DNA of 37,242 nucleotides, taken from contig JALWGC010000010.1 in assembly GCA_027038835.1 (NCBI GenBank), positions 1-37,242 on the forward strand, in the 5' to 3' direction. The stretch is from Helicobacteraceae bacterium. Its GTDB lineage: Bacteria > Campylobacterota > Campylobacteria > Campylobacterales > Sulfurimonadaceae. Positions 15,315-37,242 of the stretch are shown one piece after another (position 1 is the stretch's first letter; each line of letters starts with the position of its first letter). The notes under the pieces were generated by a model. The model made no database searches, had not been told where the DNA came from, and saw only the letters and a list, made by a program, of their open reading frames with translations. The position numbers and the translations under genes were made by a program.

Positions 15315-18300
15315 ATGCGCCAAAAAACGTTCCGCCTTTTTATCAGCTCCACTTTCAACGACCTCAAAGAGGAACGAAACATCCTCCAAAACGAGGTGTT
15401 TCCCGTAGTTAGAGATTTTTGCCGTACCTACGGATACAACTTCGAGCCTATCGATTTGCGCTGGGGAGTCACGAACGAAGCTGGACTCGACCACCAAGCG
15501 ATAGATATCTGCATAAACGAAGTGAAGAAACTCTTCAACTACCCACGTCCCAATTTTCTCGTTATCCTTGCCGATAGATACGGCTGGATACCCGTTCCCA
15601 ACAAAGTGGAATCGACCTATTTCACCAAATTGAATGAACGTATCGACCAAGAGGAGCGCTCTCTTTTACAAAAATGGTACAAAGAAGACACCAACTCCAT
15701 CCCTGCTTACTACATACTTCAACCCGTAGATTCCATCTTGGGTAGCGCAAAAGAAGCTCAAAAGCTTTGGGCTCAAGAAGAAGCCGCCATTCGTGAAATC
15801 TTTCTGCTACATGAAAACCTTTTCCCAGCTTCCATGCTCATTGGAAAATCGGCAACGGAACAAGAAATCATCTACGGTATTTTGGAATCGGCACAGCAGA
15901 TGCAAAACGAAGATGAAACCGTTTTGTGTATCGAGCGTCGAATTTGTAACGAAGAAGAGGTGGAAGATGCGGCGTTTCTTCCAGACAACCCCGAAAAACT
16001 CGACGCACTCAAACGGCGTTTGCGCAGTTGCATGCATCCTAAAGTGATATACGAAAAACTTCAAGCGCGACTTTTACGTAAAGAAGAAGGGTACAGACCC
16101 GATAGAGAATATCTCGAAGATTTCGCCGTTTTAGTCAAGAACTACCTTATAACCCACATCCAAAAAGAGATTTGGCGCCTTTCTTTCGAAGAGGAAAACG
16201 AAGAACAAGCCCATGTGCATTTTCAAAAAGAGCGAGCCGAAATCTTCGTCGGACGAGACGAACAACTTGCAGCCGTACAACACTACATAACAGACGATTC
16301 CCGCTTTACGTTTGTCGTTTACGGGGAATCGGGTGTCGGAAAATCCGCTTTTATGGCGATGGCATCCAAACAAGCACAAAATACACAAGCCGCTTCGAAA
16401 GTGATAACGAGGTTCATCGGTATCAGCGAAATCTCTTCGCAACCCAAAACACTACTTGAAAATATCACAAAGAAGATTTACCAATACATCGGGAAAAAAT
16501 ATGAAAGCTCCCCGAAAGACTACGCCCAAAGCGTCGCTCTTTTCATAAGCGCGCTCCATGAATATGCGCAAAAAAGTGATGAAAAACTCATCCTTTTCAT
16601 CGACGCCCTCGACCAGTTCGAAACGAAAAACGCTTTAGAATGGGTCGAAACGCAACTGCCGAAAAACGTCAAACTTATCCTCTCCACCTTGGAAGCTCCT
16701 TATGGGGACTACTACGATACTCTCAAGACGAAAACCCCAAAAAGCCACTTTGTCAAAGTGGAAAAACTGCAAGCTCTCCAAGGCAAAGAGATACTCCGAG
16801 CTTGGCTTCGAAACGACAACAGAACACTGACAACGGCACAACTTGAGCATGTTCTCGGGCTGTTCAAACAAAACGCCTTGCCGCTGTTTTTGAAAATTCT
16901 TTTCGAGCGAGCGAGAAAATGGCACTCCTACGATACCGATTTCACACAACTTCGCCACAGCGACCTTATAGCTGCCATAAGGGACTATTTTTCCTCTTTG
17001 GTGTATGAAAAGCACCATTCCAAAGCGCTCGTAACACACACTCTGGGTTACATTGGAGCTTCGAAAAACGGTATAGCCGAGAGCGAACTTGTCGAAGTAC
17101 TCAGTACCGACGCCATAGTATTGCACGATATCTCCAACCCTTTTCACAGACTTCCTTTGAGTCAAAACGCAACAAAGCTCCCTTCTGCAGTTTGGTCGAG
17201 GCTGTATTACGATTTGCTGAAATACCTCTCTTTTGTAGAGTTCGATGGTGTTTCCCTGCTAAATTTCTACCATCGTAAAATCAAAGAATGTGTCGGCGAC
17301 TATTATTACTCTACGGACGCTTCTTTCTTTCATGCGAAACTTCTGGAGTTTTTTTGGAATCAACCTTCAGTTTTTACCCAAAATAAAAAACCGAATTTGC
17401 GAAAACTTTCCGAACTGCCCCACCACACTATCTACAGCGAATCGTTTTCGAAGTTTTTAGAGCTTTATAGCGTGGAGTTTATGGAACTCAAAGTGCAAAA
17501 CAACCAAAAAGACGCGATGCTTTTCGAACTCTACACCATAAGCCAATCGCTCCAAAAAAGTCGAACTACCGCTGCGTTCAAAGAGGAATTTTTAAACACC
17601 CTTGTAGAGAACCTGCTTGCTTTTTTACTCCAAAAAGTCCAAAATCCAAGCAGTTCCACTCTCTCCGTCGAGGAACTTCATGCCTACTTCGTGTACAAAT
17701 CCGACAAAAGTTTCTACGCGAAAGTGCTTCAAACCGCTATGGAAACGACCCGTCTTGAAAAAATAGCTCCAAACGCACAAAAAGAGCTTCTCCTTAGCTA
17801 CCTCAGCGCTTTTAGTGCACGCTATGCGAACATGATTCGGCGGGACGCAAAACTCGAAGAAGCTTCGAAAATATACGAAAAGCTCGAAAAAGAAGGGTAT
17901 ATAAAACTTCTTGATTGCTTCGAGCAATCGCGTATCTATTACGATATCGGCTATATCGCCTACCTTGGCGGCAAATTCGACAAAGCGATCCTTTTTTTAC
18001 ATAAAAGCGCTTCTATGTCGAAAGAGTGCGGCGCATCGGTCAGCAGATACATCAGCGAATGTGTCGCTACACGTGTAGAGATGCTGCGCTACGACAAAGT
18101 CGAAAAGTTCGAAAAGACACTTCTTGAAGCTTTGGATGTTTTCGAACAACACAAATTCGACGACCCCGGAGCCAAACGGTGGATAAAAAACGTCCATGCA
18201 CACCTTTTCGAAGTCGCATACGCAAAACACGACATCGAATCGATGCGCCGCTACTTCGACCTGCTCAAAAACGACGAATGGATGTTGGATCACCAACAAA

Positions 18301-18587
18301 TGAAAAAATACTCCAGCTTCACCCCTTACGAAGCTCGTATCGCTTTGGTGGAAAAAGAGTACCAAAAAGCGGTCGAACTCTTCGAAGGCTACATCTACGG
18401 CATCGTCGGCGATGAAGAAAGAAACAAAAAAGAATCGATGGCAAGGGATTATTACGATTATTTGCTCGCTTTGCATTACACAAACAAAAAGAAATTTCAA
18501 CAAAAGAGAGAAGAAGCGATGGCGCTCCCGGACATTCCGGGTAATCATCTTTGGAAAGAGAAAATAGCCAAAATAGGTAAAGAATAA
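15315..18587 (+). CDS. DUF4062-STAND NTPase with helical-repeat C-terminus
   Basis: 1090 residues. The first about 115 residues are a DUF4062 domain (FRLFISSTFNDLKEERN, then PIDLRWGV and ILADRYGWIP), the same module found at the start of eukaryotic TEP1, NPHP3 and NWD1. A STAND/NACHT-type NTPase follows, with P-loop GESGVGKS at 337-344 and Walker B LILFIDALDQ with Asp430 and Asp433. From about 560 onward the protein is helical, and 830-1080 looks like TPR-type repeats (for example IYYDIGYIAYLGGKFDKA). In STAND proteins the repeats usually sense a trigger, the NTPase oligomerises and the N-terminal domain acts. A defence or suicide role is possible but unproven. There is no Shine-Dalgarno before the ATG and no promoter between the upstream terminator and the start. 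Its 3' end carries the fliD promoter. Confidence 0.85.
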   Translation: MRQKTFRLFISSTFNDLKEERNILQNEVFPVVRDFCRTYGYNFEPIDLRWGVTNEAGLDHQAIDICINEVKKLFNYPRPNFLVILADRYGWIPVPNKVESTYFTKLNERIDQEERSLLQKWYKEDTNSIPAYYILQPVDSILGSAKEAQKLWAQEEAAIREIFLLHENLFPASMLIGKSATEQEIIYGILESAQQMQNEDETVLCIERRICNEEEVEDAAFLPDNPEKLDALKRRLRSCMHPKVIYEKLQARLLRKEEGYRPDREYLEDFAVLVKNYLITHIQKEIWRLSFEEENEEQAHVHFQKERAEIFVGRDEQLAAVQHYITDDSRFTFVVYGESGVGKSAFMAMASKQAQNTQAASKVITRFIGISEISSQPKTLLENITKKIYQYIGKKYESSPKDYAQSVALFISALHEYAQKSDEKLILFIDALDQFETKNALEWVETQLPKNVKLILSTLEAPYGDYYDTLKTKTPKSHFVKVEKLQALQGKEILRAWLRNDNRTLTTAQLEHVLGLFKQNALPLFLKILFERARKWHSYDTDFTQLRHSDLIAAIRDYFSSLVYEKHHSKALVTHTLGYIGASKNGIAESELVEVLSTDAIVLHDISNPFHRLPLSQNATKLPSAVWSRLYYDLLKYLSFVEFDGVSLLNFYHRKIKECVGDYYYSTDASFFHAKLLEFFWNQPSVFTQNKKPNLRKLSELPHHTIYSESFSKFLELYSVEFMELKVQNNQKDAMLFELYTISQSLQKSRTTAAFKEEFLNTLVENLLAFLLQKVQNPSSSTLSVEELHAYFVYKSDKSFYAKVLQTAMETTRLEKIAPNAQKELLLSYLSAFSARYANMIRRDAKLEEASKIYEKLEKEGYIKLLDCFEQSRIYYDIGYIAYLGGKFDKAILFLHKSASMSKECGASVSRYISECVATRVEMLRYDKVEKFEKTLLEALDVFEQHKFDDPGAKRWIKNVHAHLFEVAYAKHDIESMRRYFDLLKNDEWMLDHQQMKKYSSFTPYEARIALVEKEYQKAVELFEGYIYGIVGDEERNKKESMARDYYDYLLALHYTNKKKFQQKREEAMALPDIPGNHLWKEKIAKIGKE

Positions 18588-18604: not shown

Positions 18605-18635
18605 TTATAGGTAAGAATAGACAAAAGGATGTGTG

Positions 18636-20327
18636 ATGGCAGGGACTATCAATTCTCTTGGTATCGGTTCTGGGGTTTTGACCTCGGACGTTATAGACAA
18701 ACTCAAAAAGAACGAAAAAGACGTCATAGTCAAACCGATAGAAAACAAGATAGAGCTACAAAAACAAAAATCGCAATCGCTCGATTTACTCAAAAGTTTG
18801 CTCACCTCTTTTCGTGCGAACGCCAAAGCGCTCGATGACGATGCGTTGTACCAAAGCAGGACCGTCGATGGCAGCAACGACGGTGTTTCGGTAAGCGCAC
18901 AAGACGGAGTTGCGGTACAATCGTTTAGAATAAGCGATACCCGGCTCGCACTCAAAAACGTTTTTCAATCGGGGCATTTCAACTCCAGAAACGCAACCGT
19001 CGCGCAGGGTGATGGAACGATGAGCATCACCATCGATTCCCAAACGTTCGACATCGACTACACGGCGACAACGACCCTCGATGAGCTCAAAACCAAAATC
19101 AACGATGTAGCGGGTGAAAAAGTCGAAGCGAAAATTCTGCAAGTCGGCGACAACGACTATACGATGGTGCTCACTTCCAAAGAAACGGGCGAATCGCAAA
19201 ACATCACCGTCAGCGATTCCGCGGTCGGCTCGCTCGATGCGGGGCTTTATAGAACCAGAGATTCGATCGAGGGGGGTGCGTTCTCCGCAGCAAGCGACAC
19301 CGTAGCGAGCGGAAGCGGTTCGATGACATTGACCGTAAACGGAACCGACTACACCATCAACTACGACACATCCACCACCCTCCAATCCCTTGTCGATGAT
19401 ATCAACAACACCGTAGGGAGCGATGTCGCCTCTATACACCAAAGCGCAAGCGGTGAGTACAGACTCGTAGTCGAATCGACCTCCCAGTGGGAAGACGACA
19501 CCCTCAAAATCGTCGATAACGACGGCGCGCTCGATAGCAAAATCACATCCTACACCCAAAACGATTTCAACGACGAAATACAAAAAGCAAGCGATGCGAA
19601 ATTCAAATACAACGGTATCGAGATAACAAGAAGCTCCAACACCATCGACGACCTTATCGTCGGTGTTACGATAGAGCTCAAACAAGAAAACGCCAGCAGC
19701 AACATCTCCATCAAACAAGATGTTTCCGCCGTAAGTGAGGAGATGCAGTCGTTTGTCGATAACTACAATTCCCTTATGAGTCAAATCGACAAGATGACCC
19801 TTGCCGATACCGAAGAGAACAAAGTCGGACTCTTCAACGGTGACAACTCCATTCGCGGTATAGGAAGAGAAATAACCAAAATCGTCACTTCGTTTTCCAA
19901 CGACGGTTTTTCCCTTTCCCAATTCGGTATAAACATTTCCCAAGACGGTGTGATGAGCTTCAACTCCGCACAGTTTGAAAAAAAGTTCAACGAAGACCCA
20001 AAAGCGGCGGAGCTTTTCCTAAGCGGCGGTTCGACGGTCAACGAAAGCGGCAACGTAGTTACCCATGACGGTGTTTTTACCAAACTCGCAGATACCATGG
20101 ACAACCTCACCGGTGCAAACGGTACTATCAACACGATTATCACCGGTAACGAAAAAGAAGGGAAAAATCTCGAAGAGTCGCACAAAAGAGCGCTGGCGCT
20201 GCTCAATAGCAGATACGACACGATGACGGCACGCTTCATAGAGTACGACGCTATCATCAGTAAACTCAACAACCAGTTCAGCGTCTTGCAACAGCAAATC
20301 GAAATGGCGATAAACGGGAAAGACTAA
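18636..20327 (+). CDS. fliD: Flagellar filament cap protein FliD
   Basis: 563 residues from the ATG at 18636; an in-frame GTG sits three bases earlier, but the AAGGA site at 18625-18629 is spaced better for the ATG. The start MAGTINSLGIGSGVLTSDVI is the FliD N-terminal signature. The middle holds two flagellin-hook-IN-type repeats (around 125-195 and 225-300, each with a TTTLDEL or STTLQSL core), and the last about 100 residues are an amphipathic coiled coil that binds the filament tip. FliD caps the growing filament and helps fold secreted flagellin. Unusually, no fliS or flaG flanks it; a string of sugar-modification genes starts seven bases after its stop instead. Confidence 0.95.
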   Translation: MAGTINSLGIGSGVLTSDVIDKLKKNEKDVIVKPIENKIELQKQKSQSLDLLKSLLTSFRANAKALDDDALYQSRTVDGSNDGVSVSAQDGVAVQSFRISDTRLALKNVFQSGHFNSRNATVAQGDGTMSITIDSQTFDIDYTATTTLDELKTKINDVAGEKVEAKILQVGDNDYTMVLTSKETGESQNITVSDSAVGSLDAGLYRTRDSIEGGAFSAASDTVASGSGSMTLTVNGTDYTINYDTSTTLQSLVDDINNTVGSDVASIHQSASGEYRLVVESTSQWEDDTLKIVDNDGALDSKITSYTQNDFNDEIQKASDAKFKYNGIEITRSSNTIDDLIVGVTIELKQENASSNISIKQDVSAVSEEMQSFVDNYNSLMSQIDKMTLADTEENKVGLFNGDNSIRGIGREITKIVTSFSNDGFSLSQFGINISQDGVMSFNSAQFEKKFNEDPKAAELFLSGGSTVNESGNVVTHDGVFTKLADTMDNLTGANGTINTIITGNEKEGKNLEESHKRALALLNSRYDTMTARFIEYDAIISKLNNQFSVLQQQIEMAINGKD

Positions 20328-20333
20328 AAACAC

Positions 20334-20747
20334 ATGAATATCGAGCTGATCGATTTTCAAGAGCACGTGAACGAACGGGGTGCTCTTGTAGCTTTGGAAG
20401 AGAGAAAAAACATTCCCTTTGCAATCAAACGGGTGTATTACATATACGACGTACCGCAAGAAAAAAGAAGAGGCTACCATGCCCACAGAGATTTGGAACA
20501 GGTGGCGGTTTGCCTCAAGGGGCGATGTTCTTTTCTTTTGGATGACGGCAAGACCAAAACGACATACACCCTTGAGAATCCCGCAACCGGTTTGTATATC
20601 AAAGGGCTTGTCTGGAGAGAGATATTCGACTTTAGCGATGATTGCGTTTTACTCGTTCTTGCCAATCACTACTACGATACGAAAGACTACATTTTCAGCT
20701 ACCAAGAGTTCCTAAAGGCCGTCGCCGATGATACATCCGCTTGCTGA
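20334..20747 (+). CDS. dTDP-4-oxo-6-deoxyglucose 3,4-ketoisomerase (FdtA/QdtA family)
   Basis: 137 residues, a single cupin (WxcM-like) domain of the usual length. The diagnostic motif is RGYHAH with His49 and His51, the catalytic positions of FdtA-type enzymes, followed by [10 protein letters not shown]. The enzyme shifts the keto group of dTDP-4-oxo-6-deoxy-glucose from C4 to C3, the first step toward dTDP-Fuc3NAc (FdtA) or dTDP-Qui3NAc (QdtA). The overall pattern looks closer to FdtA, but I cannot decide the C4 stereochemistry. It begins seven bases after fliD and overlaps the acetyltransferase by 20 bases. The dTDP-sugar suppliers RmlA and RmlB are not in the window. Confidence 0.87.
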
Positions 20748-21246
20748 CGTTCAGACCGAATCGGTAGGAAAAAATACCGACATATGGCAGTTTTGCGTCG
20801 TTTTACCAAAAGCTCGAATCGGTGAAAACTGCAACATCAACGCCCATGTGTTCATCGAAAACGACGTAATTGTCGGAAACAACGTAACCGTCAAGTCGGG
20901 AGTGCAGCTTTGGGACGGGCTTCGAATCGAAGACAACGTGTTTATCGGTCCAAACGTAACTTTCACGAACGATTTTCTACCCCGCAGCAAGCACTACCCG
21001 AAAAGTTTTCTAAAAACAACTCTCGAACGAGGCGCCTCCATCGGAGCCAATGCCACACTCATAGGAGGAATCGTAATCGGCGAATACGCCATGGTAGGTG
21101 CGGGAAGCGTCGTAACCAAAGATATACCCGCTCAAGAATTGTGGCACGGCAATCCCGCCGTTTTTCACGGTTATGTCTGTCGCTGCGGGAAAAAATGCGA
21201 CGAATCGCTCGTTTGCGAAGATTGCCAAAAAGAAGCTGCTTCATGA
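20728..21246 (+). CDS. Left-handed beta-helix N-acetyltransferase for a 3-amino-3,6-dideoxy sugar
   Basis: 172 residues. Hexapeptide repeats run from about 5 to 150 ([54 protein letters not shown]) and form a left-handed beta-helix that binds acetyl-CoA at trimer interfaces. The family includes FdtC, QdtC and WlbB, which acetylate the C3 amine of dTDP-3-amino-3,6-dideoxyhexose. The C-terminus has six Cys in 19 residues, a small zinc-ribbon-like tail. It overlaps both neighbours, so it is translated as part of a tight operon. An arginine-rich frame reading through its 3' half into the next gene is a shadow. Confidence 0.87.
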
Positions 21247-22346
21247 TCCCTTTTCTCGACCTCAAATCGATAAACGCTCCCTATATCGATGCGTTCGTAT
21301 CGGCAACACAGGAGGTTATGCGAAGCGGATGGTATATCGAGGGGGAGAGCTGCAAAGCATTCGAAAAAAATTTCGCTTCGTATTGCGGCGCTTCTTTTTG
21401 TGCAGGTGTCGGCAACGGTCTTGACGCTCTTACGTTAATCTTCAAAGCTTACGTGGCACTTGGCAAACTCCAAAAAGGGGACGAAGTGCTCGTTCCATCG
21501 AACAGTTTCATAGCATCCGCACTTGCCGTACTCAACGCCGGTTTGACTCCGGTATTCGTCGAACCGGACGAACGAACATACCTTCTCAATTCACAATCGG
21601 TAAAAAACGCTCTTTCAAAAAAAACCAAAGCGATTATGGCGGTACACCTCTATGGACAAACCTGCGAAATGGATACGCTAAAAAAAATCGCTTCTACATC
21701 CGGACTCCTTCTTGTAGAGGATGCCGCACAAGCACACGGAGCGACTTACAAAGGCGAAAAAGCGGGTGCACTCGGCGATGCCGCCGCGTTTAGTTTCTAC
21801 CCCGGGAAAAACCTCGGCGCTCTTGGGGACGGCGGCGCGGTAACGACAAACGATGCCGAACTTTACGAGATGGTTCAAGCGTTGAAAAACTACGGTTCGA
21901 ACGAAAAATACATCCACCCCTATCAAGGTGTCAATTCCCGACTCGACACCCTCCAAGCCGCTTTTTTGAACATCAAACTGCGACAGCTCGACAAAGACAA
22001 CGAAACAAGAAGGCAAATAGCCTCTTTCTATCTTGAAAACATCGACAATCAAAACATCTCCCTACCGACACTACGAACGAACTCCGTCTGGCATCTTTTC
22101 GTCGTTCGAACGAAAAACAGAGACGCACTCCAACACCACCTTTTGCAAAACGGCATAGAAAGCATGATCCACTATCCCATACCGATCCACCTGCAAAAAG
22201 CGTTCGAAGACACCAAAACACACCTGCCCATAAGCGAACAAATCGCCAAAGAGATACTCAGCGTTCCGCTGTATCCCACCCTCTCAAAAGAGCACCAACA
22301 CTTCATAGTAGAAACGCTTAACAGGTTCGAAAGGAACGAAAGATGA
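21243..22346 (+). CDS. PLP-dependent DegT/DnrJ/EryC1 aminotransferase (FdtB/QdtB-like)
   Basis: 367 residues from the ATG at 21243, which overlaps the acetyltransferase stop. An upstream extension of the frame is rejected because the family begins exactly at [11 protein letters not shown]. The PLP-binding Lys189 is in [15 protein letters not shown], and [10 protein letters not shown] at 158-167 contacts the cofactor. Sugar aminotransferases of this group use glutamate to aminate a ketosugar nucleotide. With the ketoisomerase and acetyltransferase it completes a three-step route to dTDP-3-acetamido-3,6-dideoxyhexose. The downstream gene starts inside its last codon (ATGA overlap). Confidence 0.9.
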
Positions 22347-25300
22347 AATACATCATCCTTGCAGCGGGAAAAGGGCTGGAGTCTTTGCAAGAGCACAACA
22401 AACTGCCCCAGACGCTGCATCGATTCAAGGACAAAAATCTTCTCGATTACCATTTGCAAATCGCATCGAATTTCACCGATGAAATTATCGTCGTAGGGGG
22501 ATTCGAAATACTCAAACTCATACAAAGCTACCCAAAACTCCAATACTACTACAACGAAAAATGGGAAGAAACAAGCACCCTTTTTTCACTCTACAAGGCG
22601 ATAGACGAACTCGACACCGACACCATCATAACCTACTCCGACACACTCTATTTCGAAGATTCGATTACACAGATGCTCAAAAACGACTCGAGCATCTCCA
22701 TAGCGTACGATTCCGCTTGGGCGACACGCTACGACGGTAGGGAAATCGATGACGAAAACATCGAAAAGGTTTACGAAAAAGAAAACGGCTTCATCGTAAC
22801 GAAACAAAGACTCAAACACCTCCTAAGGGGTGAATTCGCCGGCATCGTCTATGTACCGAAATCGCAAATCAAGCTGTTTCGAAAAGAGATAGAAACGGCG
22901 ATAACGCGTAATATCGCATCGGCTCTTATAGATATTTTTCAAAATTTCCCCAAAGAGGAGCTCTCTCTTTACGATTTCAAATCGCAATGGGCCGAAGCCG
23001 ATTCGCTCCAAGACCTCGAGCGGTTTCATTTCGGCACCAAAGCCCAAACGCTTCACAATCTAAAAAACGCCCTCACCCTTTCGAAGATATTGCCCCAATA
23101 CAAGTTTTCGGTACAAGAGTTCGACGACGCACCCAAAAACGTTCTCAAAGAGATTTCCCAAAAGTTTCAAGAACGCTACGTCGTCGTTAGAAGCTCCGCA
23201 AAAGGGGAGGACTCCCTCGAAGCCTCTATGGCGGGAAACTTCGAGAGCGTTTTGAACGTGGACAAAGAAAACGGCGACGAACTGCTCGCTGCCATAAAAC
23301 GGGTGATACGAAGCTACACCCTAAAAGGGGCGAACGACCCTTCCAATGAAGTGCTCGTTCAACCCTATTTGCAAAATGTTCGCATCCATGGTGTGTGTTT
23401 GAGTATGGACGTAAAAAACAACGCCCCGTACTACATCGTCAACTATGCGCACACATCCGACACCGAAGCGATTACCGACGGCTCCGCATCACGCCATGAA
23501 ACTTTCGTATGTTACAAAAACTACCAAAGCGCACCCCCTACGAAATACCTCCAAACACTTCTAAACGCCGTCAAAGAGATAGAATCGACGACCCGATTCG
23601 ACGCGCTCGATATAGAGTTCGCTTTTGTCCAAGAACAGCTCTACATCTTGCAAGTTCGCCCCATCGCCATCAAAAAAAACACCCGAACAATAAGCCGTTA
23701 CGACATACAAAAAGAGCTTGACAAACTCAAAAGCTCCTTTGCCAAGCGGCAAAAAGAGCGCTATCTCCTTGGCAGCAAAACCGGCTTTGGAGTGATGCCC
23801 GATTGGAATCCGGCGGAGATTATCGGCATCGACCCAAAACCGCTTGCAAGTGCGCTTTATCGATACATCGTAACCGATACCGTCTGGGCGCAAAGTCGCT
23901 ACCGATTAGGGTACAAAGAGGTCAAAAACGCACCCGGAATGGTGCTTTTTTCCCAAAAAGCCTATATCGATATCCAAATGAGTTTCAACACTTTCTTACC
24001 CCAATCACTTCCGGATGAACTCGGTGCGAAACTTGTCGATTACGCCATGAGCAAACTGCAAAAAAACAGAGAATTAGACGACAAAGTCGAGTTCGAGGTG
24101 ATGCCCACGGCATACGATTTTAATTTCCAAAAAAAGATGCAAGAGCTCCAAGACAACGGTTTTTCCCTTTCCCAAACCGCTACCATAAAAGAGCATTACA
24201 AACAACTCACAAGCGACATTATCACCCAAAAAAATTTCTCTTTTCAAGCAGAGCTTGCAAAACTGAACAAGCTGCAAAAAGAGCGTGAAGAGATTCTGCG
24301 CTCGAACAAAAACGAACTTGAGCAGATTTATCTTCTTTTAGAATCGCTCAAACACAACGGCACACTGCCGTTTGCAAAACTTGCGCGGTGTAGTTTCATC
24401 GGCTCTATCTTACTGCGTTCGCTCGTGCAAAAAGGCTCTTTGGATACGCAGCTGCACAACGATTTCTTCCGCTCCATCAACACAATCACTTCGGAATTCA
24501 TGCACGATTTTCACAAACTGCGCTCCAACGAACTTACAAAAGAGGATTTTTTAGCCAAATACGGCCATTTACGACCGAATACTTACGACATAACTTCGCT
24601 CAACTACAAAGAGGGGTTTTCCATCTACTTCCAAAACACCCAAGAGCGAAACAAAGATGCCACACCCCCAAACACCGACACTTTAAAAAAGCTCGAAACG
24701 GTGCTGAAAAAAGAGCTCAAAAACGAGAACTTCCCTTTTGGGGCATTGGAGCTTCTTGCGTTTATAACCGAGTCTATCAAATTGCGCGAATACGCGAAAT
24801 ATCTCTTTACCAAAAACATCGACACCATCTTCACCCTTTTATGCAACTTTTTCAAAGAGGATTTTTCCAAAGAGGAGCTGCAATTTGTAAACCTACATGA
24901 AATCCTCGATAGCGGTTTCGAACTGGGAGAATACAACCTTGTCGAGCAGGTACGTGCAACTATCAAAACCAACAAACTCAAACATACCCTCTCGCGCACC
25001 ATCAAGCTTCCCGACCTCATCTTCTCGCAAGAGGATTTGGAGTTTTTCTACTACACGCACAAACGCCCCAACTTCATAGGCACAACCGCCATCAGCGCAA
25101 AAGTGCTCCACCTAAGAACCGAAGATGGCGCCGAACTTGATGGGAAAATCGTCTGCATAGAAAACGCCGACCCCGGATTCGACTGGATATTCAACCACGA
25201 TATCAAAGCGCTTGTAACCAAATACGGCGGAGTCGCTTCCCATATGGCGATTCGCTGCGCCGAGCTCGATATCAGCTCCGCCATAGGGTGCGGGGAAGCG

Positions 25301-25375
25301 TTGTTCGAGAAGATATGCAACGCCGACACCGTCTTGATAGACCCCACAAATCAAAAAATAGAGACAATCACATGA
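22343..25375 (+). CDS. Fusion: degenerate nucleotidyltransferase domain plus Cj1418-like glutamine kinase (PEP-synthase-like)
   Basis: 1010 residues in three parts. Residues 1 to about 200 look like a sugar-nucleotide transferase fold (YIILAAGKG start), but the usual GxGxRLxPxT...PK signature is degraded ([14 protein letters not shown]), so it may be inactive. Residues about 210-445 are a PPDK/PEP-synthase-type ATP-binding domain ([11 protein letters not shown] near 279, LYILQVRP near 430). The last about 90 residues are the swivelling phosphohistidine domain, with GGVASH and candidate His967. The kinase part, about 780 residues, has the size and layout of C. jejuni Cj1418, which phosphorylates the amide nitrogen of L-glutamine. 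There is no PEP-binding C-terminal barrel, which argues against PEP synthase. The following two genes match Cj1417 and Cj1416 in the same order. Confidence 0.82.
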
Positions 25376-25980
25376 AAACCTGTTTGATGAGCATGCGCAT
25401 AACCCAAAACGACACCTACAAAGAGATGCGCAACTCCATCGCGTTCGCGTATGTCGAGTTTTTCGAAAAACTGGGATACACCATCGTTTTAGTACCCAAC
25501 GGCACGACGAAACTTTTGGAGTATTTTCGACACTTCGACCCTTCTTTGGTGGTCCTAAGCGGCGGGGACGACATAGACGACAAAGACAAACAGAGCCGTT
25601 TTGCAACCGAAGCGGCTATGGTTGAAGAAGCGCTAAAACGAAACGTTCCCATCATCGGTATTTGCCGAGGGTTGCAAATGATCGCCAAACAACTCTACGA
25701 TGCACCGCTAAAGCGCATAGACGCTCATGTGGCAAAACCGCATACACTCCAAAGCCCTTATCGGTTTCTCGATGCTCATCGAACCAACTCGTTTCACAAT
25801 TTCGGTATTTTTACCGATTCGTTGCCAAAAAGTGTACAGATTGTCGCGACGAAGGACGATATAGTGGAAGCTTTTTACGACAAAGAAAAGGGGGTTTTAG
25901 CCTTGCAATGGCACCCCGAACGTCAAAACGAGCCCTTCGACGTCGAACTTGTCGAAATGTTCCTACAAGGTAGTTTATGA
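25372..25980 (+). CDS. Class I glutamine amidotransferase-like hydrolase, Cj1417-like
   Basis: 202 residues from the ATG at 25372, which overlaps the kinase stop by ATGA. The catalytic triad is visible: Cys98 in GICRGLQ, then His181 and Glu183 in QWHPE; SGGDDI at 63-68 is the typical oxyanion-region motif. The fold is the gamma-glutamyl hydrolase/glutaminase type without a synthetase domain. In C. jejuni the equivalent, Cj1417, hydrolyses gamma-glutamyl-CDP-amidate to glutamate and cytidine diphosphoramidate. Position between a Cj1418-like kinase and a Cj1416-like transferase strongly favours that role over puuD-type gamma-glutamyl hydrolysis. Function is inferred from context, not tested. 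Confidence 0.85.
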   Translation: MKTCLMSMRITQNDTYKEMRNSIAFAYVEFFEKLGYTIVLVPNGTTKLLEYFRHFDPSLVVLSGGDDIDDKDKQSRFATEAAMVEEALKRNVPIIGICRGLQMIAKQLYDAPLKRIDAHVAKPHTLQSPYRFLDAHRTNSFHNFGIFTDSLPKSVQIVATKDDIVEAFYDKEKGVLALQWHPERQNEPFDVELVEMFLQGSL

Positions 25981-27044
25981 AAGTGATAATTCTTTGCGCG
26001 GGTCTTGGTAGCCGCCTCCGCCCCCATACCGACAACCGTCCCAAATGTATGGTCGAAGTTGCCGACAAACCGATCGTACGGCACCAACTCGATCTTTTCG
26101 CCGAATTTGGAATAAAAGAGATAACCCTTGTTACCGGCTACAAAGCCGACGTCATCCCCTACGACGATGTCGCCAAAATCCACAACCAAGACTACGACTC
26201 GACCAATATGCTCCACTCGTTATTCTTGGCAAAAGAGCTCTTTTTGCAAAACGAGGATATCCTCGTATCGTATGGGGATATCATCTACACCAAAGAGGTT
26301 TTACAAAAAATCATCGATGCCGATGGAGCGTGCGACGTCGTCGTCGATAAAGGGTTCAAACCCTATTGGTACGCAAGATCGCAAGAACCGCTTGAGGATT
26401 TGGAAACGTTGCGACTCGATGACAAAGGGTTCATCTGCGATATCGGCAACACTCCGCGAAACATCGAAGAGATACAAGGGCAGTACATCGGTCTTTTCAA
26501 GTTCTCCAAAACCGTTACGAAAGAGGTGTACGACTTCTACGCCTCTTTAAACGACACCAAAAATATGTACGTAACCGCTTTTTTGCAAGCGCTGTCGCAA
26601 AACGGCTTTGAGCTCGCTCCCGTTTTCATCCACAACGGCTGGATAGAAATAGATACGCCCGATGATATGCTCCATACGAACTTTTTACGATACGGCGAGG
26701 AGTACTTCATAACCGAAGAGTTCTTGCACCGCATAAACACTCGTAACGGGTTGGAAAAGGGCGATTTTCCACGTATGGAAAAGCTTTGTAAAAAGATAGA
26801 CGTCGTCAAGAAAATCTATCAGGTTTACGAGCGAGATTTGACACAAGCCGCCACTAGTGTAGAAATCTCCGCCAAGAACTACAACCTTCTGCTTCGAACG
26901 CTTGGCACTTTGGCGATGCGATACAACGATTTGAAGTACCTCAATTCCGCACTGAAACTCCAAGATACGCTCCAAGAGCGGGGTATCCTCTCAAAGCACG
27001 CCAAAGAGGAAGTTACACGTTGCCAAAAGGAGCTTTTGGTATGA
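25977..27044 (+). CDS. Nucleotidyltransferase, Cj1416-like CTP:phosphoglutamine cytidylyltransferase candidate
   Basis: 355 residues. The first about 240 form a nucleotidyltransferase domain with an intact signature, CAGLGSRLRPHT then RPKCMVEV (Lys23), and an acidic metal site (YGDIIY near 100). The final about 110 residues are a helical extension not typical of RmlA-type enzymes. In C. jejuni, Cj1416 couples CTP to L-glutamine phosphate; the order kinase, amidotransferase, nucleotidyltransferase is the same here. A choline- or glycerol-phosphate cytidylyltransferase is the main alternative, since a TagF-like gene follows two genes later. It overlaps the upstream stop (ATGA) and the downstream start. 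Confidence 0.82.
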   Translation: MKVIILCAGLGSRLRPHTDNRPKCMVEVADKPIVRHQLDLFAEFGIKEITLVTGYKADVIPYDDVAKIHNQDYDSTNMLHSLFLAKELFLQNEDILVSYGDIIYTKEVLQKIIDADGACDVVVDKGFKPYWYARSQEPLEDLETLRLDDKGFICDIGNTPRNIEEIQGQYIGLFKFSKTVTKEVYDFYASLNDTKNMYVTAFLQALSQNGFELAPVFIHNGWIEIDTPDDMLHTNFLRYGEEYFITEEFLHRINTRNGLEKGDFPRMEKLCKKIDVVKKIYQVYERDLTQAATSVEISAKNYNLLLRTLGTLAMRYNDLKYLNSALKLQDTLQERGILSKHAKEEVTRCQKELLV

Positions 27045-27811
27045 TCGATTTGACCTTCTTGTACGTTGGTACGATAGAGTCGAAAATCTACCTCGAACTC
27101 CTCGCACAAAACGACCTTCTGCCAAAAAAGATCGTTTTTTTGCGCTTTGGCAACTACGATTCGTTCATAGCCAAACGGGAAAACGTAGAACCGAAACTTC
27201 AAAAGGAGTTGATCGATTTTCTCAACTTGCCGCACACAAAGCTTTCTTGTTTCTCTTTGCGAAACTACGAAACCGAAATAGACGAGATAACCATCGATTC
27301 ACTCGCCGATGCACACTTGGCGCGCTATCTCGCGAACGAACCCATCAAAACGTTTCTCTATACCGGCGGAGGGAAAGTTCCAACTTCCCTGCTTACTATA
27401 AAAAACAGCAAGTTCATACATATCCATCCGGGTATCCTGCCCGATATCAAAGGGGCGGATTGTTTCTTGTGGTCTTTGTCGATACGGAAAAAACTTGGCT
27501 ATAGCTGCTTCTACATGAACGAAGGGATCGACACCGGCGATATCCTCTACACCAAAGAGTACGATATAGCCGATTTTTCCCTTTTTGTCGAAAAATACGA
27601 CATACACCGGCTCTACAAAGCGATACTGCACTACTACGACCCCGTTTTACGCATACGTACGTTTATGGAGATGCTACGCAAAAACTCCTTGGACGCTCTT
27701 TCCTCTCTCCCTTCGCGAAGACAAAACCCAAACGAAGGGAGAACCTACTTTTTCATGCATCCCGTTTTGCGAAACTACGTACTACAAAAATATCTACAAG
27801 GCAACCGATGA
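27041..27811 (+). CDS. Formyltransferase-family protein with altered active site
   Basis: 256 residues from the ATG at 27041 (AAGGAG site upstream, ATGA overlap with the previous stop); an upstream TTG start is less likely. The central block HIHPGILPDIKGADCF and then GIDTGDIL is the formyltransferase hallmark: the His and the Asp of the N-H-D triad are present. The usual Asn of the NxH motif is His here (HIH), so a standard 10-formyl-tetrahydrofolate mechanism is in doubt. Related proteins occur in surface-glycan clusters of other bacteria. Possible roles are N-formylation of an amino sugar or another acyl or phospho-linked modification. It lies between the CDP-phosphoramidate trio and the TagF-like gene. 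Confidence 0.7.
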   Translation: MIDLTFLYVGTIESKIYLELLAQNDLLPKKIVFLRFGNYDSFIAKRENVEPKLQKELIDFLNLPHTKLSCFSLRNYETEIDEITIDSLADAHLARYLANEPIKTFLYTGGGKVPTSLLTIKNSKFIHIHPGILPDIKGADCFLWSLSIRKKLGYSCFYMNEGIDTGDILYTKEYDIADFSLFVEKYDIHRLYKAILHYYDPVLRIRTFMEMLRKNSLDALSSLPSRRQNPNEGRTYFFMHPVLRNYVLQKYLQGNR

Positions 27812-28911
27812 AACGAAACAACGACTATTTCCGCTCCCTTTACAACGTCAAAAAATTCAACGCTCGCTTCGCACGAAAAAAGCCGGTAGTCTTCTACAGC
27901 CGCTACATCGTGCACAACTCTTTCATAGCGCCTATACTCAGCGAGTTGACCAAAAGGGGTGAAGTGGTAGTTTTTTGCGGCGACAAACACGACCCGCAAC
28001 TGCAAAAAAAACAACGCAACCTCCACACTTTTTATCTCGATTTTCGCTACGAATCCCTTTTTCGTTTGCTAAAAACCCCCGTGCTCGCTACTGCCGCCAC
28101 CTCTTTTGCGGCGAAGAACAAACCAAAAGATTCCAAACTCGTTCATATCTTCCACTCCCTTGTGAGCATCAACTATGTCTATACCGAATCGGCTTACGAC
28201 GGATACGACGTTTTTTTCGCAACCGGTGAGCATCACTACAACGAGCTAAGAAGCTACGCGAAGCAGAAAAACTGGAAGAACAAGACTTTTTTCAAAATCG
28301 GCTACCCGAAGATAATCGACGTTACCGCCAACAAACGGCTGCCAAAACCTAAAACGGCGACCGTTTTGCTCGCGCCTTCATGGGGCAAGTACAATCTTCT
28401 AAGGGAGCACGGTTTGGAAATAGTGCGACAACTCCTCGATGCGGGGTATGCCGTTACGGTTCGACCCCATACCCATTCTTATCAAAACGACAAAGATATC
28501 TTGGATGAAATTCGAGCGATAGCACGAACCGACCACCGCTGTATCGTCGAGGAAAAAGAGAGCATCTCCACCGCCTCTTTGGCAAAAGCCGACTTGATGA
28601 TATCGGACTGGTCGGGAGCCGCCTACGAATTCGCCTTTGGATTTTTGAAACCGGTCTTGTTCATAGACGTACCGAAAAAAATCAACAACCAAAACCAAAA
28701 GTTACTGACCCTCTTTACCCCTATGGAGGTGTATTTGCGAGATATCGTCGGCAAAGTGAGCTCCATCGAGCACATGACAGAGGATGTAGAGTCGATGCTC
28801 GCTAACGAAAAAATATATAGAAAAAAAATCGTCCAAGCCAGAAAAAACCATCTTTACAATCTCTCAAACGCCCATAAAAAAGCCGCGCTTTGCTTGGAAA
28901 ACATGCTATAA
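27808..28911 (+). CDS. TagF/TagB-like CDP-alcohol phosphotransferase (glycerophosphotransferase family)
   Basis: 367 residues, a GT-B-like fold. Characteristic motifs are APSWGKYN (about 189-196), RPHTHS (about 218-223) and ISDWSGAAYEFAF (about 265-277), matching the conserved HPH/RPH and SDxSS-x-x-EF blocks of CDP-glycerol:polyglycerophosphate transferases. These enzymes move a phospho-alcohol from a CDP-activated donor to an acceptor at the inner membrane face. No teichoic-acid genes exist here, so the donor may be another CDP compound, possibly the product of the preceding genes (inference). It overlaps the upstream gene by four bases and ends the fliD-glycan run; the promoter of the giant glycosyltransferase spans its stop codon. 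Confidence 0.8.
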   Translation: MKRNNDYFRSLYNVKKFNARFARKKPVVFYSRYIVHNSFIAPILSELTKRGEVVVFCGDKHDPQLQKKQRNLHTFYLDFRYESLFRLLKTPVLATAATSFAAKNKPKDSKLVHIFHSLVSINYVYTESAYDGYDVFFATGEHHYNELRSYAKQKNWKNKTFFKIGYPKIIDVTANKRLPKPKTATVLLAPSWGKYNLLREHGLEIVRQLLDAGYAVTVRPHTHSYQNDKDILDEIRAIARTDHRCIVEEKESISTASLAKADLMISDWSGAAYEFAFGFLKPVLFIDVPKKINNQNQKLLTLFTPMEVYLRDIVGKVSSIEHMTEDVESMLANEKIYRKKIVQARKNHLYNLSNAHKKAALCLENML

Positions 28912-34457: not shown

Positions 34458-35918
34458 CTATTGCAACAACTTCAAGACGTTTTGCTGAACCGCATTTGCC
34501 TGACTCATAGCGTACGAGCCCGATTGCGCCAAGATGTTGAGTTTGGAGAAGTTCGCACTCTCGGCTGCGAAATCGACATCTCTTATCTGACTTTCTGCCG
34601 CTTTGACGTTGACTTGCGTTACGGTGATGTTGTTGATGGTAGCGACCATTTGGTTTTGTACAGACCCAAGGTCCGAGCGCACGACATCGAGCTGTTTTGT
34701 AGCAGCTTCCGCGATGGCCATCATCGCTTGCGCACCCGCGTATGTCGTAACACCCGATCCCAAATCGGTAGTCGCACCGATGACGTTGTCGTTGTTGATA
34801 GCGCCTATGGCTCGCGCTTCGCTATTGGAAAAACCATCGAGCGTCGTTCTTAGATTCACCGTCGCTTCGTTCTTTCCGCCCGCATCCAAAACGGTATCGC
34901 TTACACGGATGTCGCCGCCACCGAGTTTAATCATAGTCAAGTTACCGGAGTATTGACCGTCATCTATACCCGCAATAGAAGAGAGTCCGCTTGTATCGAT
35001 CATTCTACCGTCACGTGAAGTAAGCTCCAACCTACCGCGAGGATCGACCGATGCGGTAACGCCTGTTGTCTCTTTTTCGGCGTTGATAGCTTGAACGAGA
35101 ACACCTGTGTTGTCGTTTGCTTTGACATCGTTAGCGACGATAGTTACGCCGTTGATGGTAAATGTAGCGGCACTGGCCGAAGCTATCGACTTACTACCGG
35201 TTTCGACAACGTTGTAAGAAGCTTTTACGCCGAGCGCATCGGAGTTTTTATTAATAACTTCCGCCAACGCTCCAAAACCTTCACCTGCACCACTACCCAT
35301 AGTGACGCTTTCTAACGTGAGCACTTGATTGGCATCTCCATGAGCGCCGCTGAAAGTAAGACTGATCGTACCTGTTGCGACGCCGCTGTAAGTCTCGAAT
35401 CGGGTATGCCCGATTTTATCCGAACTTGTAGCGCCAATGGAAACACCGACAGTTTCGTTGGAGTAAGCACCGATTTGGAAATTCGCGTTTGTAAAACCGC
35501 CTGAGAGCAATGTTTTACCGTTGTATGACGTAGTTTTAGCGATATTGTCAAGCTCTTGCATCAATCTTGAAATATCCGCTTGAAGCGCTTTTCTCGTATC
35601 GGTTGTTTGACCGTCTTGTGCAGCTTGTGTCGCTTTTGTTTTGATTGTATCGAGGATTTTGATTTGCTCATCCATCGCTTTGTCCGCGATTTGGATCATA
35701 GATACACCGTCGTTGGCGTTGGCTATAGCTTGACCGAGTGCCGAAGCTTGGCTTCTTAGGCTGTCTGCAATCGCCATCCCTGAAGCGTCGTCTGCCGCTT
35801 TGTTGATACGAAGACCTGAAGAAAGTTTTTCAAGTGAGCTTGAAAGACCTCTGTTTGTTACTTGTGCGTTTGCGTGTGCGTTGAGTGCACTTACGTTTGT
35901 GTTTATTCTAAACCCCAT
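34458..35918 (-). CDS. Flagellin, complete copy
   Basis: 486 residues. The conserved D0/D1 N-terminus ([17 protein letters not shown], then [25 protein letters not shown]) and C-terminus ([19 protein letters not shown] to QQNVLKLLQ) flank a variable middle with a flagellin-IN-type motif around 260-310. Residues 88-101 ([13 protein letters not shown]) are of the Campylobacter/Helicobacter type that escapes TLR5. No signal peptide is present, as expected for type III export. A strong ribosome site (AAGGGA) and a sigma-54-type promoter precede it. It lies directly downstream of a near-copy at 36074-37242. The Ser/Thr-rich middle (for example [15 protein letters not shown]) is a plausible glycosylation target for the neighbouring enzymes. 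Confidence 0.96.
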
Positions 35919-36073: not shown

Positions 36074-37242
36074 CTACTGGAGTAGTCTAAGAACGTTTTG
36101 TTGAACGGCATTTGCCTGACTCATAGCGTATGAACCGGATTGCGCCAAGATGTTGAGTTTAGAGAAGTTCGCACTTTCAGCTGCGAAATCGACATCTCTG
36201 ATTTGGCTTTCTGCCGCTTTGACGTTAACTTGCGTAACAGAAACGTTGTTGATAGTCGAAACCATCTGATTTTGAACAGAACCGAGGTCTGAGCGGATAG
36301 CATCGAGCTGTTTTGTAGCAGCTTCCGCGATAGCCATCATCGCTTGCGCACCTGCATATGTCGTAACACCAGAACCAAGGTCGTCTGTCGCTCCGATAAC
36401 GTTCGTGTTGGCGAATGCACCCATAGCTTTAGCTTCTGTGTTGCTAAATCCATCGAGAGTCGTTCTAAGGTTTACAGTCGCTTCATCTGTAGTACCTGCA
36501 TCGAAAACGGCATCTGATACACGGATGTCGCCGCCACCGAGTTTAATCATAGTCAAGTTACCGGAGTATTGACCGTCATCTATACCTGCAACAGAAGAGA
36601 GTCCGCTTGTATCGATCATTCTACCGTCACGCGAAGTAAGTTCGAGATGACCTCTTGCATCGACCGATGCGGTAACGCCTGTTGTCTCTTTTTCGGCGTT
36701 GATAGCTTGTACGAGAACACCTGTGTTGTCGTTTGCTTTGACATCGTTAGCGACGATAGTTACGCCGTTGATGCTAAATGTGATGGCACCTGTAGCAGCT
36801 ACTGAAGCAGTACCGGTTTCGACAACGTTGTAAGAAGCTTTTACGCCGAGCGCATCGGAGTTTTTATTAATAACTTCCGCCAACGCTCCAAAACCTTCAC
36901 CTGCACCACTACCCATAGTAACACTTTCAAGTGTAACTACAGCACCTGCATCACCGTTTACACCGCTAAATGTAAGACTAATCGAACCTGTAGCTACATC
37001 ATGTGTAGTTTCAAAGCGGGTATGCCCGATTTTATCCGAACTTGTAGCGCCAATGGAAACACCGACTGTTTCGTTGGAGTATCCACCGATTTGGAAATTC
37101 GCGTTTGTAAAACCGCCTGAGAGCAACGTTTTACCGTTGTATGACGTAGTTTTAGCGATATTGTCAAGCTCTTGCATCAATCTTGAAATATCCGCTTGAA
37201 GCGCTTTTCTCGTATCGGTTGTTTGACCGTCTTGTGCAGCTT
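36074..37242 (-). CDS. Flagellin, second copy, 5' end beyond the window
   Basis: The frame stays open to the right edge; about 389 C-terminal residues are visible and the N-terminal about 95 residues lie outside. It is nearly the same protein as the copy at 34458-35918: by hand count about 40 differences in 368 shared residues, concentrated in the surface-exposed middle (for example [13 protein letters not shown] against TASVAATGAITFS). The ends are almost invariant and it finishes QQNVLRLLQ. DNA identity is patchy, with long near-identical blocks between stretches full of silent changes. Its promoter is not visible. A hairpin follows the stop. Confidence 0.95.
   Translation of the reverse strand, partial: AAQDGQTTDTRKALQADISRLMQELDNIAKTTSYNGKTLLSGGFTNANFQIGGYSNETVGVSIGATSSDKIGHTRFETTHDVATGSISLTFSGVNGDAGAVVTLESVTMGSGAGEGFGALAEVINKNSDALGVKASYNVVETGTASVAATGAITFSINGVTIVANDVKANDNTGVLVQAINAEKETTGVTASVDARGHLELTSRDGRMIDTSGLSSVAGIDDGQYSGNLTMIKLGGGDIRVSDAVFDAGTTDEATVNLRTTLDGFSNTEAKAMGAFANTNVIGATDDLGSGVTTYAGAQAMMAIAEAATKQLDAIRSDLGSVQNQMVSTINNVSVTQVNVKAAESQIRDVDFAAESANFSKLNILAQSGSYAMSQANAVQQNVLRLLQ
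36074..37242 (-). repeat. Tandem gene duplication (flagellin), repeat of 34458-35637
   Basis: The right-hand flagellin gene is a direct repeat of the left-hand one on the same strand, separated by 155 bases. Identical or nearly identical blocks include about 35048-35158 with about 36667-36777, and about 34904-34970 with about 36523-36589. Between them silent differences are dense, the pattern expected of gene conversion. Confidence 0.85.

Follow-up and report, generated by a model that had tools for sequence, protein, structure and literature searches.

A Cj1416–Cj1418-like gene trio in a flagellar operon and its possible role in phosphoramidate decoration of flagellin

Could a flagellar filament carry phosphoramidate? 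The question is raised by three consecutive genes in a stretch of DNA from a Helicobacteraceae bacterium (assembly GCA_027038835.1, contig JALWGC010000010.1, positions 1 to 37,242, forward strand), hereafter the window, which is the whole 37,242 nucleotides analysed. They resemble Cj1418, Cj1417 and Cj1416 of Campylobacter jejuni, whose roles, together with that of Cj1415, in the pathway to the O-methyl phosphoramidate (MeOPN) of the capsule are described in the available text of PMC11800397. A first-pass annotation had suggested that the trio serves phosphoramidate decoration of a flagellar or other surface glycan. The present analysis points to a flagellin-glycosylation cassette that would make a phosphoramidate-decorated glycan and use cytidine diphosphoramidate (CDP-NH2) directly, a reading we hold to be probable, though well short of certain.

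The trio and its relatives

The three reading frames were confirmed as consecutive genes with a 4-bp overlap each (Table 1). The first, a putative glutamine kinase, gave 840 bits with the NCBIfam model PRK05849 (cut-off 501) over residues 224–1009 and at most 58.1 bits with the phosphoenolpyruvate (PEP) synthase models of the same scan; kinship with true PEP/pyruvate phosphotransferases was therefore not borne out. Its Pfam matches are to PPDK_N and the PEP-utilising mobile domain, with no PEP-barrel model among them, in agreement with its earlier description as a kinase lacking that barrel. The histidine of the YGGxxSHMAIR motif is invariant in six aligned kinase sequences, and the protein is the sole PRK05849-type match in its genome. 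Since PPDK_N and PEP-utiliser domains are common to PEP synthase, the genes might be read as ordinary PEP synthase and sugar nucleotidyltransferase relatives with no phosphoramidate role, but the gap between the two sets of scores, and the finding of hydrolase and cytidylyltransferase genes together with the kinase in 129 of the 137 loci compared below, make this very improbable.

The second gene specifies a class I amidotransferase whose Cys98/His181/Glu183 triad is intact, as first reported, and invariant in six aligned sequences including that of the window (the alignment numbering runs one higher, the start having been taken one codon upstream). Its top NCBIfam match is GCDPHdlase, at 102 bits (equivalog cut-off 250). 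A profile search of the trio thus placed the kinase over a curated cut-off and the hydrolase in its best family but below the cut-off. Elsewhere, loci L017 (315) and L018 (324) pass the same cut-off and L019 (182) and L020 (122) fail it. The nucleotidyltransferase signature of the third protein was likewise found intact in an alignment with five homologues (39–51% identity); its best PDB match is a CTP:phosphocholine cytidylyltransferase (2.5e-15), and no NCBIfam model bearing the name of its function occurs among the matches listed (25 of 30). Searches of solved structures with the trio proteins returned remote relatives only.

That the order is that of Cj1418/Cj1417/Cj1416 was upheld through a Campylobacter-type locus of a relative, L017 (genome G076), which stands in here for the C. 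jejuni proteins. The three genes occur there in identical order, and a neighbouring protein scores 680 against the MeOPN-transferase model (cut-off 600). Identity between the window and L017 is 36% for the kinase, 33% for the hydrolase and 39% for the cytidylyltransferase. Judged from sequence, the family assignment of the trio is well supported.

Two further domains had been missed. In an alignment of 47 long kinases, judged by eye and including some outside the fused type, the GxG(T/S)R...PK signature of the N-terminal nucleotidyltransferase-like domain is intact in none, and the metal-binding Asp region is mostly kept; because the signature is not intact, this domain is probably no working transferase. 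Domain X, at the C-terminus of the cytidylyltransferase, matched no Pfam family above cut-off and is taken up with the formyltransferase-like protein below. The long kinases of four other loci (L065, L071, L077, L087) carry an N-terminal P-loop segment matched by the trimmed 3'-kinase profile, a fusion which would link the functions of Cj1415 and Cj1418.

The flagellar setting

The flagellar location of the trio is well supported. As the first-pass annotation had it, the genes lie downstream of fliD and not in a capsule locus; the flagellin described as beside them is 7.4 kb past the trio and convergent. Five FliD models match fliD, all under their own cut-offs (best 368, cut-off 448; another 264, cut-off 500). 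The gap between fliD and fdtA is 6 bp, fdtA overlaps the hexapeptide gene, the seven genes from the hexapeptide gene through the TagF-like gene are joined by six overlaps of 4 bp, and the giant glycosyltransferase gene starts 27 bp further on. Scans for sigma-54 and sigma-28 patterns gave nothing upstream of fliD and two sigma-54-like matches elsewhere in the window. A 1090-aa protein with DUF4062 and an AAA/NACHT/STAND-type NTPase is encoded at 15315–18587, 45 bp upstream of fliD.

Table 1. Features of the operon and its surroundings in the window
Feature	Coordinates	Strand	Evidence
fliD (filament cap), the first of the flagellar genes in the apparent operon	18633..20327	+	NCBIfam FliD models
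FdtA-type dTDP-sugar 3,4-ketoisomerase	20334..20747	+	Pfam FdtA 167 bits, cut-off 23
Hexapeptide acyltransferase, probably acting as a sugar N-acetyltransferase (FdtC-like to judge by context)	20728..21246	+	Pfam Hexapep 82 bits
DegT/DnrJ aminotransferase (FdtB-like by context)	21243..22346	+	Pfam DegT 364 bits; PseC model 224 bits, below cut-off 423.5
Cj1418-like glutamine kinase (1010 aa), ATP-grasp and phosphohistidine domain, fused N-terminal nucleotidyltransferase-like domain	22343..25375	+	PRK05849 840 bits
N-terminal nucleotidyltransferase-like domain of the kinase, ~222 residues, degenerate signature	22343..23008	+	22% identity to the window's stand-alone nucleotidyltransferase
Cj1417-like class I amidotransferase (202 aa), gamma-glutamyl-CDP-amidate hydrolase family	25372..25980, ATG at 25372	+	GCDPHdlase 102 bits; triad invariant
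Cj1416-like LicC-type cytidylyltransferase (residues 1–235) fused to domain X (236–355); 355 aa	25977..27044	+	Homologue identity; PDB match
Domain X	26682..27041	+	Elsewhere a separate gene or fused to formyltransferase-like protein
Formyltransferase-fold protein, H-x-H replacing N-x-H	27041..27811	+	Pfam Formyl_trans_N 36 bits
TagF-like (Glyphos_transf) transferase, candidate phosphoramidate transferase	27808..28911	+	Pfam PF04464 30 bits, cut-off 22
Giant glycosyltransferase with several domains (GT2, and one GT1-like), 1818 aa	28939..34395	+	Pfam Glycos_transf_2 274 bits, 3 stretches
Flagellin, convergent	34458..35918	-	Pfam Flagellin_N 160, Flagellin_C 99 bits
Second flagellin gene, truncated at the edge of the window	36074..37242	-	Open frame; sequence closely like 34458–35918

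A FliD match was obtained in 21 relatives, and the fliD regions of ten were read, those of L209, L211, L212 and L215 being shortened by contig ends. Pseudaminic-acid genes adjoin fliD in seven of the ten and lie downstream of it in six (L208, L210, L211, L212, L213, L217). PseI exceeds its cut-off in five of these six, and the assignment of L212 comes from PseB- and PseC-like proteins; in the same-genus genome G001 (L209) PseI is found just upstream of fliD. In L213, PseB, PseC and PseI are all above cut-off, and the PseD-like proteins of L213 (487 bits) and L208 (556 bits) fall below the model cut-off of 670. The L208 and L213 islands, the two stretches in which flagellins were read, end at convergent flagellins. 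The cassette of the window thus occupies the same place beside fliD and has the same convergent-flagellin end, but is without the pseudaminic-acid genes, and no PseD/Maf-like match was found among the operon proteins. PseI had no match in the window's genome and passed its cut-off in all eight relatives searched. Because the slot in relatives holds pseudaminic-acid genes and PseI was not found here, the window has the look of an exchanged cassette of flagellar sugar genes.

A different destination has to be considered, namely that the trio makes CDP-NH2 and the group goes to another surface glycan, such as a lipopolysaccharide O-chain or exopolysaccharide, the flagellar position being incidental or shared. 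RmlB is over its cut-off in the genome, so that the dTDP-sugar precursor can be made, and since it lies on another contig a second dTDP-sugar glycan may exist; moreover, 32 of the 35 kinase loci of the order have no flagellin match near the trio (three contigs are short). This alternative nevertheless sits poorly with the flagellar sugar genes that fill the slot in relatives, the want of a PseI match, the 4-bp overlaps of the trio with its neighbours and the lack of any KpsC/S capsule gene match in the genome, and we regard it as unlikely.

Kinase loci were also inspected for flagellar genes outside the window. In the order of the source organism the kinase exceeded its cut-off in 35 of 398 genomes, among which only the window's is of fused length; genome G013, outside those 35 matches, carries two copies, one of them short and the other fused. 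Flagellins lie near the trio in L093, an Arcobacteraceae metagenome-assembled genome (MAG) with four flagellin matches, and in L155; a Eubacterium MAG (L089) has one match. Pseudomonas, the genus of L094, possesses the kinase in 23 of 298 genomes, and in six of these 23 loci (L185, L187–L191) the profile match closest to the kinase on one side is a flagellin/FlgL-type gene; the one tested, from L187, has a Flagellin_N domain. Independent cases are fewer than six, since L190/L191 and L188/L189 match closely in scores and spacing. L094, from the same genome as L191, encodes a homologue of the giant glycosyltransferase (804 bits) and has a flagellin match at its far end. The flagellar-adjacent Pseudomonas loci contain a 3'-kinase plus either a formyltransferase-like gene or a methyltransferase, and for this reason their gene set is not that of the window.

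Gene content and the proposed steps beyond CDP-NH2

In all, 137 kinase loci were compared: the window, 84 from broad scans, 31 from the order and 21 from Pseudomonas. L022 (a duplicate of L020), L191 (genome of L094) and L198 (genome of L099) were left out, and other overlaps may remain. The broad contig scan took the best 80 of at least 535 confirmed kinase relatives in bacteria and archaea; members turned up in records of Legionella septentrionalis, haloarchaea, Pacearchaeota, SAR86 and Prochlorococcus (L024, L028, L030, L035, L040, L080), well outside Campylobacter. Accessory genes were counted with domain-trimmed profiles, as the untrimmed 3'-kinase profile drifted onto fused kinase proteins; the trimmed flagellin profile missed FlgL-type proteins, and flagellin counts come from separate searches.

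The numbers of loci with each gene, for fused (n = 38), short (n = 85) and other long kinases (n = 14) in that order, are: hydrolase 38, 78 and 14; cytidylyltransferase 37, 80 and 14; 3'-kinase 3, 71 and 10; methyltransferase 0, 64 and 4; formyltransferase-like 16, 7 and 7; TagF-like 16, 9 and 2. TagF-like and formyltransferase-like genes occur together in 14 of the fused loci, in none of the short and in one of the other long. In a cytidylyltransferase tree the window clusters with sequences nearly all from fused loci (32 of the 33 in its group). Genome G013 allows a natural comparison of the two types: L019 has a short kinase together with 3'-kinase and methyltransferase genes, and L020 a fused kinase together with a Glyphos_transf gene. 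IMPase/CysQ-like genes, named by eye, lie near the trio in short-kinase loci L021, L046, L066, L084, L097 and L101 and in no long ones; they would fit a role in recycling some 3'-phosphorylated by-product.

Campylobacter-type parts were sought in the window's own genome, rated 100% complete, with other genomes as positive controls. The best match to the Cj1415-like (APS-kinase-like) 3'-kinase was 20 bits, inside a 1416-aa frame, compared with 83–368 bits in four other genomes. For the Cj1419/1420-like methyltransferase it was 24 bits, compared with 389–589 bits in G013, G061 and G076 and 21 bits in G030. PF05159 (KpsC/S) had no match in the genome, four in G076 and five in G061, both of which have the Campylobacter-type pathway, and one of 28 bits in G013. 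Within the window, the untrimmed profile of the MeOPN transferase (CJJ1420 family) gave no match.

Two genes, overlooked in the first-pass annotation, stand directly after the trio. A profile of 14 relatives of the TagF-like protein detected TagF (3.3e-5) and TarL (8.7e-4) among solved structures, with a TagF-like capsule polymerase at a non-significant 0.086, and the predicted model (pLDDT 90.5) superposed on TagF with Z 22.0 and a root-mean-square deviation (rmsd) of 4.4 over 326 aligned residues. In the sister fused locus L020 a different and stronger Glyphos_transf protein (187.5 bits) directly follows the trio. The formyltransferase-like protein (pLDDT 92.8) has the methionyl-tRNA formyltransferase fold (E. 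coli FMT, Z 16.8, rmsd 4.0, 210 aligned). The catalytic triad of sugar N-formyltransferases is Asn-His-Asp; here HxH replaces NxH, the catalytic Asn being His in 18 of 18 relatives, with the Asp retained, so that this triad is not present. Elsewhere domain X is a gene of its own directly before the formyltransferase-like gene or is fused to its product, linking the formyltransferase-like protein to the trio. X was found in 17 of the 137 loci, every one with a formyltransferase-like gene; 13 of the 30 formyltransferase-like loci show no X, in some cases because a fused X part scores low. Methyltransferase (68 loci) and formyltransferase-like genes (30 loci) are not found together in any locus (Fisher p 3e-11, uncorrected for phylogeny and with some loci cut by contig ends), and this exclusion suggests that the latter modify the same group in another way. 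Loci L158 and L159 (G405 and G410, family f9) possess the trio and a match to the untrimmed formyltransferase-like profile, not listed by the trimmed one.

From these data we infer the following chemistry, including the acceptor sugar and flagellin as the target. By analogy with the characterised C. jejuni homologues, the kinase would use ATP to phosphorylate glutamine at its amide, the LicC-like enzyme would couple the product to CTP to give CDP-glutamine, and the hydrolase would release glutamate to leave CDP-NH2. CDP-NH2 itself is the likely donor because no 3'-kinase was found in the genome, and its direct use is also suggested by published flagellin models that pair a LicC-like cytidylyltransferase with a TagF-like transferase. 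Fold, gene coupling and co-occurrence make the TagF-like protein the candidate which may move the phosphoramidate to a sugar hydroxyl with release of CMP. The acceptor is probably a residue of the 3-amino-3,6-dideoxyhexose type, derived from dTDP-4-keto-6-deoxyglucose through the fdtA, DegT and hexapeptide genes, and the giant glycosyltransferase would place it on flagellin, to judge from operon and position. In view of the mutual exclusion, the X/formyltransferase-like pair may modify the group or the acceptor in place of the Campylobacter-type methyltransferases.

The trio might make another CDP-linked group: CDP-glutamine may be used intact or, if the kinase acts on a different amino acid, a phospho-amino-acid glycan may result. 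The divergence of the hydrolase and cytidylyltransferase would allow this, and TagF-like transfer from CDP-threonine is the flagellin-glycan model of PMC10714395 and PMC11833859 in their available text. The hydrolase gene is present in all 38 fused loci, however, so the amide is probably cleaved, and the kinase shares a conserved core with the enzyme of the Campylobacter type; we consider this alternative quite improbable.

Several observations weigh against a phosphoramidate-making flagellin cassette. Besides the low hydrolase score, only three of the 35 kinase loci of the order lie near flagellin (window included; L142 weak; three contigs short), a figure that by itself does not clearly exceed chance where a genome has several flagellin genes. 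Three of the ten fliD regions read (L214, L215, L216) show no sugar island, and PF05159 is also unmatched in the short-kinase genome G030, so its absence is not special to the window. In fold comparison, UDP-GlcNAc 2-epimerases (Z 21.7) fit the TagF-like protein as well as TagF does (Z 22.0). No gph-type gene lies within 8 kb in 22 of the 38 fused loci, one of which, L020, has the other Glyphos_transf protein. The idea that the fused kinases form a single clade marked by a distinct gene set was rejected: the kinase tree splits them into several groups, and the fused type is thus not one clean lineage.

The suggestion of phosphoramidate on a flagellar glycan is accordingly only partly supported. 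The trio families and the flagellar slot of relatives speak for it; the hydrolase lies below its cut-off, the 3'-kinase and methyltransferases of C. jejuni were not found and other genes are in their place. More tentative, and on present evidence rather doubtful, is a second widespread phosphoramidate branch, with direct transfer of the group from CDP-NH2 by a TagF-like enzyme, no 3'-phosphorylation, and capping or modification by X and the formyltransferase-fold protein in place of O-methylation; its target would be the filament here, and a related set would act on the same target in some Pseudomonas, so that phosphoramidate would be a decoration of flagellin glycans.

Relation to known systems

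The kinase family is spread over bacteria and archaea, and its member in the window lies in a flagellar sugar island. If the proposal is right, filaments carry a P–N group, a chemically odd surface that phages and immune receptors would encounter, and the locus could be used to assay the X/formyltransferase-like pair and a CDP-NH2 transferase. A phosphoramide group occurs in Xanthomonas lipopolysaccharide. No published report of a flagellar phosphoramidate was found in the literature searched. A Clostridium botulinum flagellar-island paper (PMC2674064) was considered as a precedent and set aside, as 'phosphoramidate' occurs in its available text only in the title of a reference. Phosphoramidate sugars are treated as a speciality of the Campylobacter capsule in the accessible parts of two reviews (PMC6429109, PMC9561416), and a 2014 survey (PMC3907429), in the portion available, looked within the genus Campylobacter.

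A CTP:phosphoglutamine cytidylyltransferase outside Campylobacter is described for a MeOPN-type cluster of archaeal Borg elements, with no flagellar context stated in the available text (PMC12660748). Phosphorus-bearing sugars are described on the type A flagellin of Clostridium difficile (CD0240–CD0244) and the b-type flagellin of Pseudomonas aeruginosa PAO1 (PA1088–PA1091), for which LicC-like and TagF-like enzymes and a CDP-activated donor have been proposed; that donor is CDP-(methyl)threonine, formed from phosphothreonine, and the available portions mention no glutamine kinase or amidotransferase (PMC10714395, PMC11833859).

The closest comparison is the MeOPN pathway of C. jejuni (Cj1415–Cj1418, Cj1421/Cj1422). 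The window differs from it in lying at a flagellar and not a capsule locus, in the extra N-terminal domain of its kinase, and in having TagF-like and X/formyltransferase-like genes where the 3'-kinase and methyltransferase were not found in the genome. What the two share, as compared through L017, are the families of the trio, their order and their catalytic residues.

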